DNA of 64,000 nt from an uncultured Rhodospirillales bacterium. Its GTDB lineage: Bacteria; Pseudomonadota; Alphaproteobacteria; Rhodospirillales; JABHCV01. Below, piece by piece: positions 2,773 to 12,751 of this stretch (position 1 is the first letter of the stretch; each line of letters begins with the position of its first letter). The translations under genes were made by a program, and so were the position numbers. Location of the stretch: NCBI GenBank assembly GCA_938092065.1, contig CALKND010000001.1, positions 1-64,000 of the forward strand, in the 5' to 3' direction. The notes beneath the pieces were generated by a model. That model saw only the letters and a list, made by a program, of their open reading frames with translations. It ran no database searches and had not been told where the DNA came from.

Positions 2773-3306
2773 CTACTGGGCACACTGGGCAAGGATAAAG
2801 CTAATTAATTCGTCACGCGCTTCGTTAACTGAGACAGTACCAGTATTAATGATGAGATCAGATTTTTCTGGTGGTTCGTAGGGAGCGTTCGGTGAATACC
2901 CAATCAAGTTCTCCATTTCCCCGTTGCGAGCTTTGACATAGAAGCCTTTTGTGTCACGGTTTTCAAGTATTGAAATTTCGGCAAATAAATAAATTTCAAA
3001 AAAACCAGGAGATAGTTGTTGCCGTGCTTTAGTACGGGATTCCGCGTAGGGAGAAATAACTGGCACTAGAAGAATATCAGCAAGCTCTCTCTCACTTTCG
3101 CACAACTCAGCAATAAGTTTGTTGTTTTCTTTAATTTCTAATTCGCTAAAACCAAGATGACGATGCAGACGGTTTCGAACATCATCTCCATCGAGCACAG
3201 ATACCTTGAAGTTCCGAGTGTTAAGGCGCTCGCGCACTAGGTTAGCAATAGTCGTTTTTCCCACCCCAGAAAGTCCGGAGAACCAAAAAATTAAGCCCTG
3301 CTTCAT
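2773..3306 (-). CDS. cysC: Adenylylsulfate (APS) kinase
   Basis: CysC phosphorylates APS to PAPS using ATP. The 177-residue protein starts almost directly with a perfect P-loop, GLSGVGKTT (residues 11-19). It also carries the family motifs LDGDDVR, NRLHRHLGFS, VISPYAESR, EIYLFAE and KGFYVKAR. The length is that of a stand-alone CysC. The start codon overlaps the stop of the upstream pyruvate kinase-ATP sulfurylase gene by 4 bases, so the two are translationally coupled and together would make APS and then PAPS. No cysH, cysDN or sulfotransferase gene is in the window, so whether PAPS goes to assimilation or to sulfation cannot be told here. Confidence 0.95.
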   Translation of the reverse strand: MKQGLIFWFSGLSGVGKTTIANLVRERLNTRNFKVSVLDGDDVRNRLHRHLGFSELEIKENNKLIAELCESERELADILLVPVISPYAESRTKARQQLSPGFFEIYLFAEISILENRDTKGFYVKARNGEMENLIGYSPNAPYEPPEKSDLIINTGTVSVNEARDELISFILAQCAQ

Positions 3307-5477
3307 TCTACAAACAAGGTTTGATTTTTAGCGACTTCTAAACGCAGGCTATCTTGAACAACTTCACGCATCATCCAGTCAGGGATGCTCTTCCCATCTC
3401 GTAGGGAAGCTCGAATTTGTTTGTCGTCAATCGCGAGCATATTTACACTATCACTAACAGGTCCGTAACTGGCTGTTGAAGTATTGTAGCCAACAGTATC
3501 AAAAAATACCAACTGAATGCCAAAATCACCAAGATTTTCTATAAAATCTTGGTTAGCCCCAAGCGCATGAAAATCTTCTACACCCGCATAATCACTGCCA
3601 AAGATGTAATGGCTACACCCCATATTCTTACGACACAAGGCCGTAAAAACTAATTCACGGGGCCCCGCATAACGGGAATATGCGGCAACAGTCCCAAGGA
3701 TAACCTTGCCTTTTGGGAACAGTCCAAAATCTAACATCGTCTGATAGCTCAGCATAATTGGGCCAAGCATAAAATCACCATACTCTTTTGGCTTAATAAC
3801 TGGATTGATATACAGCCCGTCTGCACCCGTATCTTCAAGCGCTTTTAGTTGTATATGCTCGTGACCACGATGAATTGGATTGTGAGTATAAAAACCAATC
3901 ACTTTTGACCACCCTTTATGGGCAAAAATGAATCGGCTTTGCGCTGGGGTCAATTCGTAGTGCCTATGTGAAGACGGCAGCCGCTCTACTAAGAAAACAT
4001 CACCCGCGACAAACCGATCACCACCCTTAAAAAGCCGAGCGACACCTGGATGTTTCTTAGAAGTGGTATTGAACCATTTTTGTGCAAGTGGCTCCAGGTC
4101 CATAGTAAAAATTTCTGAAACATCTAAGGTCGCGTAAACTTTTCCATTAGCCCCAGCAAGGGCAATTCGATCTCCAACTCCAAAGCTATTGGCAGCTATC
4201 TCAGGCGCAGCTAGGAGGATTGGCATTGTCCAGATAGTACCGTCTGGAAGTCGGTTGGTTTCTAGAACTGCTTCGCAAGTCTGATGGTCCATAAAGCCAG
4301 CTAATGGTGAGTAGGTGCCATGGGCTATTTGCTCACAATCAAGAAGTGTTGTGCTAGAAACTGAGAGCTGAATAAGATGAGTTACTTGCTCACATTCTTT
4401 AACGCTTGCAAGGCACTGAACAAGACTCCCGCCATGGGGTTCAACTAGCAAGGATATAGGATCAAAAGGATATTCTAGCGGGTCAGCTAATTTAGGCTTT
4501 TCGAAATTACGGACCATCTTAACTACCATAGAAGCACAGGCAATAGGATGGTCGCCAATTGCCGTTTCTGCAGCAAGGACTAAACCATCAGCGCCATCAA
4601 GCAAGGTGTTGTATATATCATTTACTTCGGCTCTAGTTGGTGTTGGATGTGTGATCATTGATTCCAGTAAATTTGTAGCAACATATACTTTGCGGTTCAT
4701 ATCCTTGGCACTTTGGATGATTGCTTTTTGAACTTCTGGTATGCGCTCCAGGGGCAATTGACGCGACAAATCTCCACGGTCAATCAGCAAGGCGTCAGAG
4801 GCAGTCGCAATTTCAACTAAATGGGCCAGTCCCAGAAGAGACTCTATTTTTGAAATAATGAAGGCATCGTTTCTTGTTAGTTGGCGGATCTTTTCGACGT
4901 CTTCACTGCAACTAGCGAAGGATAGAGCATAATGACTAAGATTTCTTTCCATACCTATAGCTAGGCAAGCCTGGTCATTTTCTGTTAAGGGAGCCAAAGC
5001 AATGTCACGGTCAACTGTCACTGCTTTGTTTCGACCAACCAGACCCCCATTAATGACACGCAAGATTGCACCATCTTCTTCTATTCCTATAACCTGAACC
5101 AAGACAGAGTTAAAGTCGATGCTGATGAAGTCTCCGATTTGGAACTCATCAACTATATTATTTGGATAGAAGTTAAAGCTTTCTGCGTCACCAGGAACCT
5201 TTCGGCGGTGACCACAGACAATATTGTTTTCTTTAAGCTCAATCTGATTCTCAACAAAGTCACCAGTCCTGACCTGCGCGCCTTCCGTATCTAGACAAAT
5301 GGGTACATCAGTATTACACTGAATAGTCTCAATAATTGACGGTAAATCATGGGCCTTAGTGTGAGATAAATTAATACGAAAAAGTCCAACTCCCAGCTCA
5401 TCTAGCCGCTTAATAATCTGTCCATCCAATGAGCTGGGCCCAAGTGTACATAAAATTTCTTTTTTGTTTTTTTTCAT
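3303..5477 (-). CDS. Fused pyruvate kinase-like / ATP sulfurylase protein
   Basis: A 724-residue two-part protein. Residues 1 to about 345 are a pyruvate kinase barrel with its B domain: LCTLGPSS, RINLSHT, CLDTEGAQVRTG, ISKIES, DRGDL, ESMITHPTPTRAEV and GLVLAAETAIG. The usual C-terminal allosteric domain of pyruvate kinase is missing. From about 350 to the end is an ATP sulfurylase (Sat): YSPLAGFM, then FYTHNPIHRGHEHI (529-542), RYAGPRE, and a GSDYAG (627-632) where canonical enzymes have GRDHAG. The HxxH nucleotide motif is kept, but the usual QTRN is YTHN, so part of the presumed sulfate pocket differs. The gene is coupled to cysC, so APS synthesis is the likely role. Whether the kinase half is active is unknown. 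Confidence 0.85.
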   Translation of the reverse strand: MKKNKKEILCTLGPSSLDGQIIKRLDELGVGLFRINLSHTKAHDLPSIIETIQCNTDVPICLDTEGAQVRTGDFVENQIELKENNIVCGHRRKVPGDAESFNFYPNNIVDEFQIGDFISIDFNSVLVQVIGIEEDGAILRVINGGLVGRNKAVTVDRDIALAPLTENDQACLAIGMERNLSHYALSFASCSEDVEKIRQLTRNDAFIISKIESLLGLAHLVEIATASDALLIDRGDLSRQLPLERIPEVQKAIIQSAKDMNRKVYVATNLLESMITHPTPTRAEVNDIYNTLLDGADGLVLAAETAIGDHPIACASMVVKMVRNFEKPKLADPLEYPFDPISLLVEPHGGSLVQCLASVKECEQVTHLIQLSVSSTTLLDCEQIAHGTYSPLAGFMDHQTCEAVLETNRLPDGTIWTMPILLAAPEIAANSFGVGDRIALAGANGKVYATLDVSEIFTMDLEPLAQKWFNTTSKKHPGVARLFKGGDRFVAGDVFLVERLPSSHRHYELTPAQSRFIFAHKGWSKVIGFYTHNPIHRGHEHIQLKALEDTGADGLYINPVIKPKEYGDFMLGPIMLSYQTMLDFGLFPKGKVILGTVAAYSRYAGPRELVFTALCRKNMGCSHYIFGSDYAGVEDFHALGANQDFIENLGDFGIQLVFFDTVGYNTSTASYGPVSDSVNMLAIDDKQIRASLRDGKSIPDWMMREVVQDSLRLEVAKNQTLFVE

Positions 5478-5882: not shown

Positions 5883-6254
5883 TCAAAGACGCTTAACAAT
5901 CTTAGTAATACTTACAGCAAGGTGTTCATCGATTACCACTACTTCCCCCTTAGCGATTAAATTATCTTCTGCAAAAAGCTCAATTTCTTCACCGACGAAG
6001 CGTTCCAGTTCAACAACTGCACCACGTCCAAGTTTTAGGACTTGGCCTATCGGCATATTTGATGTTCCAAGTACTGCCGTAACATCAATGGCAACTCCAT
6101 AAACAGCCTCAATGACTTCCTGATCAGCATCATCAACCTTCAAAGCCCCACCAGAACCAAAATTATCATCTTCGGCTTTTAATGCCTCACCAGAATCAAT
6201 ACCATCATCCTCAGCCTTTAATGTGTCACCAGAGTCATTATATTCTTCAGCCAT
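5883..6254 (-). CDS. fliN: Flagellar motor switch protein FliN
   Basis: The 123-residue protein has a C-terminal SpoA/FliN domain (about residues 47-123): YGVAIDVTAVLGTSNMPIGQVLKLGRGAVVELER...EEIELFAEDNLIAKGEVVVID. The LGRGAVVEL and NLIAKGEVV segments are diagnostic of FliN in the C-ring, which sets rotation direction with FliM and FliG. The N-terminal 45 residues are acidic and made of three 13-residue repeats. No other flagellar gene is in the window, so the gene sits apart from the main flagellar cluster, or the cluster lies elsewhere. It is preceded on the same strand by a 75-residue unknown gene, 57 bases upstream. Confidence 0.9.
   Translation of the reverse strand: MAEEYNDSGDTLKAEDDGIDSGEALKAEDDNFGSGGALKVDDADQEVIEAVYGVAIDVTAVLGTSNMPIGQVLKLGRGAVVELERFVGEEIELFAEDNLIAKGEVVVIDEHLAVSITKIVKRL
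6120..6236 (-). repeat. Three 39-base tandem repeats inside fliN
   Basis: Three in-frame units encode residues 7-19, 20-32 and 33-45 of FliN: DSGDTLKAEDDGI, DSGEALKAEDDNF and GSGGALKVDDADQ. The first two are nearly identical and the third has diverged. Confidence 0.85.
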
Positions 6255-9044: not shown

Positions 9045-10172
9045 TTATTCAATTTCGTCTTCGCGCATAATCCAGCCACCACCCATGACCCTGTCACCAT
9101 CATAAAAGACACACGCCTGCCCGGGCGCCACGGCACCTTGCGAGTCTTTTAAAACAACTTTTGCCATACCTTCGCCGCATTGACTTATAATTGCACTCAG
9201 GGGAGGTTGGGTGGAGCGTAATTTGACCTTGAGCTTAAAATCATTTTCTGGAAAATCACCAGCTCCCAACCAGTTTATATCCTTGAGGGTAAGGCACTGG
9301 CGTTTAAGCGCATTTTTTGGGCCAACAACCACTTGCGATGTGAGTGGATCCAAGCGTATCACATAAAGAGGCTCTTTAGCGGCAATACCTAAGCCCCGTC
9401 GCTGACCAACCGTGTAGTTAATGATGCCTAAATGACGACCCAGAACATTTCCGTCTAAGTTCACAATATCACCTTCAGTCACAGCTTCTGGGCGCAGTTT
9501 ACGCACAATGTCACTGTAGGAGCCTTTCTGCACAAAGCAAATATCTTGGCTATCGCGTTTAGAGGCGACAGGCAGGTTATACTTGCGGGCCAGATTACGG
9601 GTGGCATTCTTGTCCATGTGACCCAAAGGAAAGCGCAAAAAATCAAGCTGTTCACGATTCATAGAGAACATGAAATAGCTTTGGTCGCGTGTATAGTCGC
9701 TACCGGCATGAAGCTCGGCCCCATCCTGCCCCATCAGTCGGCGTACATAATGTCCAGTTACCATCAAATCTGCACCCAAGTCTTCTGCTTTGACCAATAG
9801 ATCCGTGAACTTGACAGTTTCATTGCAACGTACGCACGGAATTGGGGTTTCTCCACGCAAGTAAGTATCTGCAAAGTCATCTATCACTGCTTCTTTGAAG
9901 CGTGTCTCAAAATCTAGAACATAGTGTGGAATGCCAATGGCATCAGCCACATTGCGTGCATCATTTATATCACGTCCAGCGCAACAGGTGCCTGACTTTG
10001 ATACAGCCTTGCCGTGATCATAAAGCTGTAAGGTGATGCCTACTACGTCATAGCCATCATTGTGCAACATGGCCGCTGTGACTGAACTGTCAACGCCACC
10101 GGACATGGCAACAACGACTCGAGTTGCCGATGCTGACTTTGCTAATCCTAAAGAATTTAGTGCAATACTCAT
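9045..10172 (-). CDS. mnmA: tRNA 2-thiouridylase MnmA
   Basis: MnmA adds sulfur to uridine 34 of tRNA-Lys, -Glu and -Gln, using persulfide sulfur that starts from a cysteine desulfurase. The 375-residue protein has the ATP-pyrophosphatase loop SGGVDSSV (24-31) and then the family segments [23 protein letters not shown] (catalytic Cys) and ISQDICFV-like [16 protein letters not shown] (second catalytic Cys). GHYVRR and [12 protein letters not shown] are also typical. The length matches the family. It has its own minus-strand transcript, convergent with the Atm1-type exporter. Confidence 0.95.
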
Positions 10173-10229: not shown

Positions 10230-11045
10230 CTAAATAATTGAATGTCGAATTTTTGCGGAGACCCACTCACTCAAGATCACAGTCACTAAAATAACAAGTA
10301 AGATCAATGAAACCTGCGTCCAGCTTACTGTGTCGATTGAGGAACTTAGCTGTAGTCCAATTCCACCAGCTCCAACGAGGCCCAAAATAGCTGACTCACG
10401 AATATTGATGTCCCAACGAAAGACTGAAATACCTGCGAACGCAGGCAATATTTGAGGCACAATACCATAATTTAGCACCTGCGAACCCTTGGCCCCAGTA
10501 GCGGTAACAGCCTCAACCTGAGTTTCATCAATTTCTTCAATCGCTTCATACAGAAGCTTAGCGCAAAAACCTATTGAGCGAAAACCAATAGCCAATACCC
10601 CCGCGAAAACACCAGGACCCAGAATGGTCACAAGCATTAACGCCCAAAGTAAGGAGTTTATTGATCTGGAGGAAACAATAATAAATAAAGCAAAAGGGCG
10701 AACAAAAGCTGTCGATGGGGTTGTGTTTCGCGCTGCTAGAAAGGCGATAGGAAAAGCAAAAACCACAGCCATCAAGGTTCCCAATGTAGCAATGATGACC
10801 GTATCCCAGATGGGGCGCCAGAGGACGTCCATATATTCCCACTTTGGTGGCAACATTCGCTCAAACATATCATTTGCTTGATGTGGTGCGTCGGTGACAA
10901 ACATCCAAATCGTGTTATCAGAGACTAACTGCCAGCAGTATACAAATATGGCAACACCGATAAACTGGCAAGCCCAGATCGTCAGTTGATGTCCGCGATC
11001 ACGGCGCTGCCAGATTTTTATTTTCGCTTGCTGCTCGTTTGGCAT
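10230..11045 (-). CDS. phnE: Phosphonate-type ABC transporter permease (second PhnE)
   Basis: An inner-membrane permease of about 271 residues with several membrane segments. It carries the PhnE-type EAA loop near LYEAIEEIDETQVEAVTATGA and the typical RWDINIRESAILGLVGAGGIGLQL block. The preferred start is the ATG at 11045, whose A is the last base of the previous gene's TAA (TAATG); a GTG at 11057 in the same frame is possible. It is the last gene of a phnD-phnC-phnE-phnE operon. Two tandem PhnE permeases usually form a heterodimer. Confidence 0.92.
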   Translation of the reverse strand: MPNEQQAKIKIWQRRDRGHQLTIWACQFIGVAIFVYCWQLVSDNTIWMFVTDAPHQANDMFERMLPPKWEYMDVLWRPIWDTVIIATLGTLMAVVFAFPIAFLAARNTTPSTAFVRPFALFIIVSSRSINSLLWALMLVTILGPGVFAGVLAIGFRSIGFCAKLLYEAIEEIDETQVEAVTATGAKGSQVLNYGIVPQILPAFAGISVFRWDINIRESAILGLVGAGGIGLQLSSSIDTVSWTQVSLILLVILVTVILSEWVSAKIRHSII

Positions 11046-11839
11046 TACTGAACCCACTTCCTGATATAGCCAGACGAATACTCTACAGCCATGACAATAC
11101 CGATGATAATTAGCAAAATGGAAGCGGATGAACTGAATTCATAACGATCAAACGTGGTTAACAGAGTCGCACCAATGCCACCCGCACCTACAATACCAAG
11201 CACTGCCGATTCCCGAAAGTTAATATCAAAACGATACATGGCCAGTCCAATCATACGAGGGGTAACTTGCGGCTGAACCGAATAATTTAGCCACTGTAAC
11301 CACGACGATCCCGTTGATTTAACTGCTTCAGCCTGCACTGGATCCATGTCTTCAATATCTTCCGCAAGCAGCTTTCCGTAGAATCCAATGCTGCCAATGG
11401 ACAAAGCGATTATGCCGGCAAAGGGTCCAAAACCAAATAATTTAACTGCAAATAAAGCGATGATAATTTCTGGAAAAGTCCTTGAAACTGCAAGAACTCC
11501 TCGAAAAAACAAGTAGATTGGACGAGGTGCTAAATTTCGTGCAGCTCCTAAACCTATTGGGATAGAGAGAAGAATACCAATCACCGTAGAGACTACGGTC
11601 ATCCAAAGGCTTTCAAATATTCCTTCCCAAATATCACTGGACTTACTTGCAAAATCTGGTGGGAAAAAAGAGGAGATAAACCGTTCTGCCCGCGGTACAC
11701 CTGCTGCTACCCGCTGCCAGTTAACGTCCATGGTGCCAATGGCAACTAATAAAAAAAGACTGCCTCCAATGGTCAGGCTCCAACGTAGCCAAGCTCGTTT
11801 AATAAATGGTGGGCGCTTCCAGATGCGTATAGCGGACAT
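11045..11839 (-). CDS. phnE: Phosphonate-type ABC transporter permease (first PhnE)
   Basis: A 264-residue inner-membrane permease. Membrane segments are evident around residues 20-40, 85-105 and 125-150. The EAA-like loop LLAEDIEDMDPVQAEAVKSTG and the block RFDINFRESAVLGIVGAGGIGATL are characteristic of PhnE. It lies 12 bases after phnC and overlaps the next permease by one base, so it is in the same operon. It partners with the second PhnE and the ATPase PhnC to import phosphonates, phosphite or related compounds delivered by PhnD. Confidence 0.93.
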   Translation of the reverse strand: MSAIRIWKRPPFIKRAWLRWSLTIGGSLFLLVAIGTMDVNWQRVAAGVPRAERFISSFFPPDFASKSSDIWEGIFESLWMTVVSTVIGILLSIPIGLGAARNLAPRPIYLFFRGVLAVSRTFPEIIIALFAVKLFGFGPFAGIIALSIGSIGFYGKLLAEDIEDMDPVQAEAVKSTGSSWLQWLNYSVQPQVTPRMIGLAMYRFDINFRESAVLGIVGAGGIGATLLTTFDRYEFSSSASILLIIIGIVMAVEYSSGYIRKWVQ

Positions 11840-11851
11840 ATTAATTGCCCC

Positions 11852-12673
11852 CTACTTTCCCGATGCCAAAGAAGTTGAGTCTTTTCTCTTTTCCTCAAAA
11901 TCTTCTTCTTTAACTTTTTCGATAGTAGACTCCCAGTCCTCTTCACCATAAATTGTCGTCAACACATCAGGTGTTAGGCCATCGGGTGGGCCATCGTAGA
12001 CAATTTCACCCAATTGCAAGCCGACGATACGTTCAGCGAACATTTGCGCTAAAAAAACATCATGAATATTAATGATTGCAGAGAGTTTCCGCTCCTTGCA
12101 CAGCTCACATATAAGCCTCATAATTTGACGCGAAGTTTTAGGGTCAAGGGAGGCGGTCGGCTCATCAACTAGCAGTAATTCCGGGTTCTGGATTAAGGCT
12201 CTACAAATTCCTACCCGTTGACGCTGGCCACCGGAAAGTTCATCAGCACGTTTGTCAGCCATATGATCCAAACCCACCCGCGCAAGCAACCGGTATGCTT
12301 CATCCACATCAGTCTGTGGGAAATTTCGAAAGTACGAACGCCAAAACGATACATATCCAAGACGACCGGACAGCACGTTTTCCATCACGCTCAAACGCTC
12401 GACCAAGGCGTATTCTTGGAAAATCATTCCCATACGGCGGCGTGCTCTCCTCAACTCGCCCTGGCTAAGGGAAGAAAGTTCTGTTTCATTTAAACAGATG
12501 CTGCCTGAAGTTGGTTCAACTAGGCGATTAACACAACGGATCAATGTTGACTTGCCTGCACCAGATGGACCAATCAAAGCCATCACCTGACCATCAGGTA
12601 TCTCAAGATAGATATCGTTGAGAGCCAAGTCGCCCGTTTTGTACTGCTTAGTTAGTTTATCAAGGCTTAGCAT
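11852..12673 (-). CDS. phnC: Phosphonate-type ABC transporter ATPase
   Basis: PhnC powers phosphonate import at the cytoplasmic face. The preferred start is the ATG at 12673 ([15 protein letters not shown]), which matches family N-termini and gives 273 residues; a longer frame reaches 12736 but runs into a hairpin. Motifs are Walker [11 protein letters not shown]-loop [12 protein letters not shown], signature [12 protein letters not shown], Walker [13 protein letters not shown] and a switch His in NIHDVFLA. The C-terminus is an acidic and lysine-rich tail (about 30 residues) that is longer than in the E. coli protein. Confidence 0.93.
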
Positions 12674-12716
12674 TGTAAGACTCGCAAAAAAACAATGATT
12701 TGTAATGATCCTCGTG

Positions 12717-12751
12717 GGGAGGCAGGCCGCAAACATGCGCCATTGCCTCCC
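12717..12751 (-). terminator. Hairpin between phnD and phnC
   Basis: Arms GGGAGGCA (12717-12724) and TGCCTCCC (12744-12751) pair perfectly, with an additional inner stem. It begins 13 bases downstream of the phnD stop and has no T-run. This fits an mRNA-stabilising or partial attenuating hairpin that lets the binding protein be made in excess over the permeases. Confidence 0.55.

Follow-up and report, generated by a model that had tools for sequence, protein, structure and literature searches.

In a 64,000-nucleotide stretch from an uncultured Rhodospirillales bacterium (assembly GCA_938092065.1, contig CALKND010000001.1, positions 1 to 64,000; hereafter the window), a single 724-residue open reading frame joins a pyruvate kinase (PK) barrel to a whole ATP sulfurylase (Sat), and the next gene encodes a CysC-like kinase of the adenosine 5'-phosphosulfate (APS) kinase type. 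The fusion recurs at the same place in many lineages. We propose, with a probability of roughly 0.5, that it forms part of a dedicated module for making 3'-phosphoadenosine 5'-phosphosulfate (PAPS), in which the PK would recycle ADP to ATP from phosphoenolpyruvate (PEP); the broader statement, that the family is a module for sulfate activation or sulfation, is likely. The features of the locus are as follows.

3303..5477, minus strand: PK-Sat fusion gene, 724 aa, seen in the open frame, Pfam domains, homologues and an AlphaFold2 model
4539..5465, minus strand: PK barrel (A and B domains, no C domain), residues ~5-313
3984..4442, minus strand: PUA_2, the N-terminal domain of ATP sulfurylase, residues 346-498 by Pfam
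3342..3962, minus strand: ATP-sulfurylase catalytic domain, residues 506-712, with HRGH retained as HxGH
2773..3306, minus strand: CysC-like kinase, 177 aa, overlapping the fusion gene by 4 bases, with P-loop GLSGVGKTT and LIGY for the canonical FTGI

The plus-strand translation of 3303-5477 is full of stops. A first-pass annotation, made from the letters of the window, had described a PK barrel without its C-terminal domain joined to a complete Sat and followed by an APS kinase gene, and the profile search of both halves that it called for recovered this architecture on the minus strand. Pfam scores the PK barrel (5-313) at 212 bits, PUA_2 (346-498) at 136.9 bits and the ATP-sulfurylase domain (506-712) at 176.6 bits, with no match to the PK C-terminal domain in the 724 residues, and the adjacent gene matches APS_kinase at 139.9 bits. 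All three motifs singled out by that annotation (CLDTEGA, YTHNP and GSDYAG) are found in the fusion protein. The AlphaFold2 model, based on 36 alignment rows, has a mean predicted local distance difference test score (pLDDT) of 90.9 and a predicted TM-score (pTM) of 0.81. In Foldseek, the PK half matches mammalian PKM chains at 2.4-2.9 Å over 341-345 columns, many other PK rows extend over the non-PK half at 13-20 Å, and the Sat half reaches a TM-score of 0.93 (by target length) to the M. thermolithotrophicus ATP sulfurylase 8a8d. None of the 50 Foldseek matches listed is described as a PK-Sat chain.

The fusion is genuine, beyond chance or error, because homologues are joined at the same place across many lineages. 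A frameshift or misassembly joining two genes is an explanation that the draft state of the window genome (37 contigs), and the many homologues on contigs of metagenome-assembled genomes (MAGs), would allow. However, the same fusion is found in 20 loci, two of which are complete plasmid sequences of Ensifer adhaerens and Sinorhizobium chiapasense; the conserved junction already refutes the artefact, including the sequencing error hiding a gene boundary against which the first-pass annotation had cautioned, and we give it next to no weight.

We aligned 20 full-length fusions (the window copy included), one partial fusion and 17 stand-alone PKs, which make up 38 distinct loci after removal of two duplicates (L049 of L038 and L059 of L043). 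The 19 other full-length fusions come from ~8 phylum-level lineages with 43-76% identity. Among 100 relatives searched, the window genome itself included, seven encode a full-length fusion, G027 a fusion cut by a contig end, and four more a stand-alone PK barrel of the same kind. A genome_contigs scan with a single-sequence query gave no matches, and an alignment-based scan then succeeded; it used the best 80 matches, so that its counts are to be read as "at least". Among the matches listed, fusions (L047-L058) occur in Alphaproteobacteria, Methylococcaceae, Verrucomicrobia and Omnitrophota, with further hosts in Actinomycetota (Salsipaludibacter), Elusimicrobia, Nitrospina, a Parcubacteria-group MAG and Pirellulales, and stand-alone barrels (L059-L072) extend to Thermoplasmata archaea; many of these homologues lie on MAG contigs, where single placements could be binning errors. 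A strict signature pattern applied to 385 genomes of the class gave six matches, four of which encode the family (three fusions, the window copy included, and one stand-alone PK with CysC); no PK was seen at the other two (L127 and L128), which look like chance. A viral origin or carriage was also considered and rejected: single-sequence patterns found no relative in viral_contigs, and in 22 phage records the match is essentially confined to the PK half, at <40% identity and with none covering 80%.

In phylogenetic trees, support is 100/100 for a clade of the 37 complete PK rows that excludes 26 canonical PKs (18 from the control set, taking every third of its 54 PKs, plus eight from the window's order), and 100/99 for a clade of the 21 fused Sat halves that excludes 25 other Sats. 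The partial fusion L042 is outside both the PK tree and the leave-one-out test used below, and L035, near-identical to L034, is outside the latter. The monophyly of the fused Sat halves, with three changes of the fusion label on the PK tree, fits one fusion event and later losses of Sat, though independent events may have occurred. No published description of a PK-Sat fusion was found in the open-licence literature, subscription literature lying outside the scope of the search. The family thus appears undescribed there, the new element being a pyruvate kinase as the partner of Sat, and the survey showed it to be widespread.

The PK half retains the PEP, Mg and phosphoryl-transfer residues of an active PK throughout the family. 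K210, E212, G235, D236 and T268 are conserved in all 38 PK rows; R34, N36, D63, R70 and K151 in all 37 rows with letters at these positions; and S38 in 36 of 37. We take R34, K210, E212, D236 and T268 to be the equivalents of R72, K269, E271, D295 and T327 of rabbit PK, and the PEP, Mg, K+ and nucleotide roles assumed for the PK half rest on what is known of the rabbit enzyme and on alignment to solved PKs. In the leave-one-out test over 19 fusions, the window copy alters 0 of 81 PK sites invariant among the others, and the catalytic-type residues fall among these invariant columns. The family also has its own signature, D[TS]EGAQxR (DTEGAQVR at residues 63-70 of the window copy), with the E and the Q each present in 36 of 37 rows, while the 54 control PKs read DLQGPK[IL]R in 49 cases and DTKGPE[VI]R in five. 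The Glu that replaces the Lys of DTKGP in CLDTEGA is therefore a family rule and not specific to this copy. PKs fall into two K+-site classes, T113/K114/E117/T120 and L113/Q114/K117/(L,I,V)120, each combination being found in ~80% of its class (PMC8835810). The family has neither, showing T or S, then E, then Q, and finally T, N or S. Two papers tie these positions to K+ dependence and the A-B hinge (PMC8835810, PMC4374775), and Gln at 117 is reported for a K+-independent archaeal PK branch (PMC4374775). The window PK half scores below the TIGR01064 cut-off (253.8 vs 306.4). Judged from the conserved residues, the odds that the family would act as a PK (PEP + ADP -> pyruvate + ATP) are about even.

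The Sat half shows one change shared by the family and others confined to the window copy. The sulfate motif reads H[TGS]RN in 20 of 21 fused Sats and QxRN in 24 of 25 other Sats (one with N), and GRDH is kept in 18 of 21 fused Sats, the exceptions being the window (GSDY), L041 (GHNY) and L051 (GRNH). YTHNP for the usual QTRNP and GSDYAG for GRDHAG, reported in the first-pass annotation, are indeed present, but both belong to the window copy and not to the family: it alone among the 21 combines YTHN with GSDY, and only L041 shows a comparable loss. Compared with its sibling L036 (genome G003), the window Sat carries H530Y, R532H, R628S and H630Y. A docking study indicates that R421 and R522 of hPAPSS1 contact sulfate (PMC11697783), and by alignment position these would correspond to R532 and R628. 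The predicted sulfate-contact arginines persist in the fused family (20 of 21 rows for that of xRN, and 19 of 21 for that of GR, where the window and L041 are the exceptions), while the window copy has lost them from both the QxRN and the GRDH motif. Because both predicted contacts are gone, the sulfate activity of the window Sat half is probably lost or changed.

The window copy nevertheless keeps the Sat fold, with PUA_2, the catalytic fold and the HxxH motif. In the leave-one-out test, it changes 0 of 18 invariant PUA sites and 3 of 34 invariant Sat sites, namely H530Y and R532H in the sulfate motif and Y637H; the number is not unusual (L050 has 3/34 and L041 4/35), and it is the position that matters. 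Between the window copy and its sibling, the nonsynonymous distance (dN) amounts to 0.165 in the Sat half and 0.114 in the PK half (the synonymous distance, dS, returned -1, taken as saturation), and the ratio of the window-to-L047 over the L036-to-L047 dN is 1.26 for Sat and 1.21 for PK. Both halves therefore look constrained overall, and decay of the whole Sat half was rejected, only the pocket being altered. The lowest fused-Sat Pfam scores in a census of 36 family genomes are those of the window (180.4 bits) and of G006, which carries L041 (187.5 bits), and both genomes also hold a separate canonical Sat. The window Sat falls below the cut-offs of TIGR00339 (246.7 vs 322.95) and PRK04149 (305.1 vs 387).

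The gene neighbourhoods connect the family with sulfation. We counted as linked a CysC-like gene no more than 200 bp away or a sulfotransferase-like gene no more than 6 kb away, and found either partner in 28 of 38 distinct family loci and in 0 of 54 canonical-PK control loci, the controls being mostly Bacteroidota, non-random and in some cases short. Two near misses would raise the count to 30: L036, with a partial APS kinase at a contig end, and L071, with CysC 353 bp off. Sulfotransferase-like genes occur within 6 kb in 16 of the 38 loci and in none of the controls; the queries were derived from family loci and applied unchanged to the controls. Thirteen of 17 candidates picked by eye score above the Pfam cut-off, L056 and L069 just below it, and L041 and L065 give no match. 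L050, L052, L054 and L058 have the sulfotransferase gene immediately adjacent, the spacing ranging from a 4-base overlap to a 37 bp gap. In the Methylococcaceae locus L048, the gene after the fusion, with a 9-base overlap by longest frame, encodes an APS/PAPS reductase that scores 267.4 bits for TIGR02055 APS_reductase (cut-off 235.3) and 271.4 for PRK02090 phosphoadenylyl-sulfate reductase (cut-off 154), and a sulfotransferase comes next. Stand-alone PK halves occur without Sat beside CysC-like genes, and a TauE-family gene adjoins the PK of L060. In addition, L195:1-2418 (genome G500) carries separate, overlapping genes for Sat (317 aa), a PK with a different signature (438 aa, DLPGIKPR) and CysC (cut by the contig end). 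As this PK is only 25% identical to that of the window, the PK-Sat-CysC partnership of L195 seems to have arisen separately.

The linked CysC-like rows split by eye into two sequence types. The window kinase passes the NCBI apsK equivalog-domain cut-off (158.8 vs 138.7), and the second-type genes of L034 and L063 lie under it (125.6 and 124.1). One Nitrospina MAG (G487) has two PK-Sat fusions, on C45 and C47 (L055 and L196), each with an APS kinase match within ~2 kb on the same strand, and the L055 kinase keeps the canonical FTG.

Several other neighbours were seen. In the window, a FliN C-ring protein gene (5883-6254) lies directly upstream of the fusion on the same strand, and by eye no flagellar gene was seen next to those homologous loci that were viewed; also by eye, three minus-strand genes at 10230-12736 resemble a phosphonate/phosphite-type ABC transporter (phnC, phnE, phnE). 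A promoter scan of the window found 8 sites with 8.8 expected, and terminator-like sites number 6 with 2.7 expected. A Na_H_Exchanger-type (CPA2/Kef-like) transporter gene adjoins the fusion or CysC in L034, L035, L039, L041, L053 and L057, confirmed by Pfam for L041 only, and ion or anion supply is a possible role. Several large genes, mostly of ~600-785 aa, lie on either side of the L038 fusion (G084); some of them match the sulfotransferase queries and have N-termini that look TPR-like by eye. In L071 (Pelagibacteraceae), a 117-aa CTP_transf_like nucleotidyltransferase (9639-9992) lies between the CysC-like gene and the stand-alone PK; the genome shows no PF01747 or CysD match, and this protein could be a stand-in for Sat.

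Most family genomes hold a separate PK, Sat or CysD, and APS kinase, and for this reason the module looks dedicated rather than housekeeping. A canonical-strength PK (>=294 bits) is present in 29 of the 36 genomes; the family PK is the only one seen in six (G000, G003, G483, G486, G501 and G502), and G496 has only weak PK fragments besides. A separate canonical Sat or CysD is likewise found in 29 of 36, with neither detected in G003 (67% complete), G073, G488, G492, G498, G502 and G503. In G053 (100% complete) and G006 (96%), no APS kinase besides the linked gene scores above 21 bits, bar marginal partial matches. The window genome (90.65% complete) has a canonical sat on contig C3, a canonical cysC on C17 and a PPDK_N match, and no PF00224 match other than the fusion in its 37 contigs. 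The idea that the PK half is the cell's glycolytic PK was not pressed, given this PPDK_N match and a canonical PK in the same-genus genome G001.

These observations are consistent with the following scheme. Sat would convert sulfate and ATP to APS; the CysC-like kinase, either linked or canonical and encoded elsewhere, would make PAPS and release ADP; the PK barrel would use PEP to turn this ADP back into ATP, relieving the ADP-dependent inhibition of APS kinase; and PAPS would feed sulfotransferases, often in clusters that by eye resemble those for surface polysaccharides. The net reaction would be sulfate + ATP + PEP -> PAPS + pyrophosphate (PPi) + pyruvate. For the window copy, PK and CysC would use APS from the canonical Sat on C3, and in other stand-alone or Sat-impaired cases they would act on APS made elsewhere, given a source. 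According to two papers, APS kinases release ADP and become trapped as an enzyme-ADP-APS complex (PMC3734648), and human PAPSS1 in vitro yields practically no PAPS without PK/PEP and does so with it, which was put down to inhibition of APS kinase via the enzyme-APS-ADP complex (PMC9885120). ADP recycling would account for the constancy of the PK, for the frequent adjacency of CysC or sulfotransferase genes and for the appearance of a distant PK in the same alliance. We infer ADP phosphorylation by the PK, action of the linked kinase on APS, sulfotransferases as the consumers and a coupled flux. The first-pass suggestion of a bifunctional enzyme that couples an ATP-yielding step to sulfate activation thus gains support at the level of sequence, from the PK phosphoryl-transfer residues, the linkage to CysC, sulfotransferase and reductase genes, and the unfused Sat-PK-CysC row. 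In its widest form, with chances a little short of even, the proposal is a natural family of PEP-powered PAPS synthases, in which sulfate activation recruited a built-in PK to regenerate ATP and scavenge ADP. One lineage would have fused this PK to Sat, in another a distant PK would have joined Sat and CysC as separate genes, and horizontal transfer of sulfation gene clusters would have carried the family through bacteria and into some archaea.

A number of observations weigh against ADP recycling for PAPS synthesis. The family has D[TS]EGAQ for DTKGPE at the A-B hinge and K+ site, which could change nucleotide or cation use, and its Sat halves carry H for the canonical Q in the sulfate motif. 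The linked CysC-like rows read [LM][IV]G in 19 of 20 where canonical APS kinases read FTG in 15 of 15 (16 loci were chosen and L152 gave no row); FTG is the substrate-loop motif that we take to be an adenine contact. The model leaves these family-specific residues unexplained; they could reflect independence from K+ or use of another nucleotide. In 25 of 36 genomes there is an APS kinase scoring >=170 bits (that of G487 near its fusions), and G488 has a fusion with no APS kinase detected. Five of the 17 stand-alone-PK genomes (G073, 97% complete, G492, G498, G502 and G503) show no PF01747 or CysD match, and the unseen APS source counts against the model for them. By the linkage distances used, 10 of 38 loci have neither partner, all three Thermoplasmata loci included. 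The window fusion itself sits among non-polysaccharide genes (fliN and, by eye, thiD), and no sulfotransferase gene was detected in the 64-kb window.

The changed residues point to a related possibility, unlikely in our view, that the module makes an analogue of PAPS: the PK-like domain would phosphorylate or activate an acceptor, the Sat-like domain would couple a nucleotide to it, and the CysC-like kinase would add the 3'-phosphate, for use by sulfotransferase-like enzymes. Cj1415 of Campylobacter is CysC-like. We liken this scheme to the Campylobacter O-methyl phosphoramidate capsule pathway, cj1415-cj1418 (PMC3907429). It would account for family-specific changes in all three active sites (D[TS]EGAQ in PK, Q to H in Sat, FTG to LIG in CysC), for the presence of separate Sat or CysD and of strong APS kinases in most genomes, which makes the module unneeded for housekeeping PAPS, and for the five stand-alone-PK genomes with no visible APS source; it is kept alive mainly because the linked kinases depart from canonical APS kinases. 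On the other hand, L048 has an APS/PAPS reductase gene right after its fusion, all fused Sats but one retain the Arg of the H/QxRN motif, the window CysC scores above the apsK cut-off, and a TauE-family gene adjoins the L060 PK.

Slightly less probable still is a regulatory role for the PK barrel, which would sense PEP or pyruvate and gate sulfate activation according to carbon status, with no turnover. Loss of the C domain and the family-specific change at the A-B hinge beside the K+ site, sites whose roles are given in PMC8835810, would suit a sensor. Yet the catalytic Lys, both Mg ligands, T268 and the nucleotide contacts are invariant or nearly so, which is more than a PEP sensor needs. 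The sensor for Sat raised in the first-pass annotation is further weakened by the PK barrels that stand near CysC-like genes with no Sat and by the window copy, where the Sat pocket is altered and the PK half is not. A purely structural or oligomerising barrel, kept for folding or assembly with no PEP chemistry, is improbable: the window copy does retain an apparently impaired Sat half under overall constraint, indicating that domains may persist non-catalytically, but the invariant columns of the PK half include the catalytic-type residues. The PEP-driven PAPS module is the preferred reading.

Sulfate activation is unfavourable and is driven by PPi hydrolysis, by APS phosphorylation or, in CysDN, by GTP hydrolysis. 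The family resembles canonical pyruvate kinase (TIGR01064; PF00224 barrel) in its A and B fold and its PEP, Mg and nucleotide residues, and differs in the absent C domain match, in D[TS]EGAQ for DTKGPE or DLQGPK and in its separate clade. It resembles Sat-type ATP sulfurylase (TIGR00339/PRK04149) in having PUA_2 and a catalytic domain with HxGH, and differs by Q to H, the window copy also being without R532, R628 and H630. Bifunctional PAPS synthases (Sat-APS kinase; CysN-CysC) place sulfate-activation steps on one chain or operon and serve sulfation (PMC3734648); here, by contrast, Sat is partnered by a pyruvate kinase, and a separate, overlapping gene supplies the APS-kinase-like step. In vitro PAPS cascades with PK/PEP regeneration use like kinds of enzyme and give PK a role like the one proposed here, but they are man-made mixtures and involve no natural fusion (PMC9885120).

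The family defines a PK subfamily with an unusual K+-site signature, which databases would probably label as plain pyruvate kinase, and it allows one to test cleanly whether trapping of APS kinase with ADP is limiting in cells. If the proposal is true, it would provide, in one chain, a ready-made part of a biotechnological cascade that is now built from separate enzymes. For the organisms themselves, an enzyme with its own PEP-driven route would add another way of driving sulfate activation and would link carbon status to sulfation.

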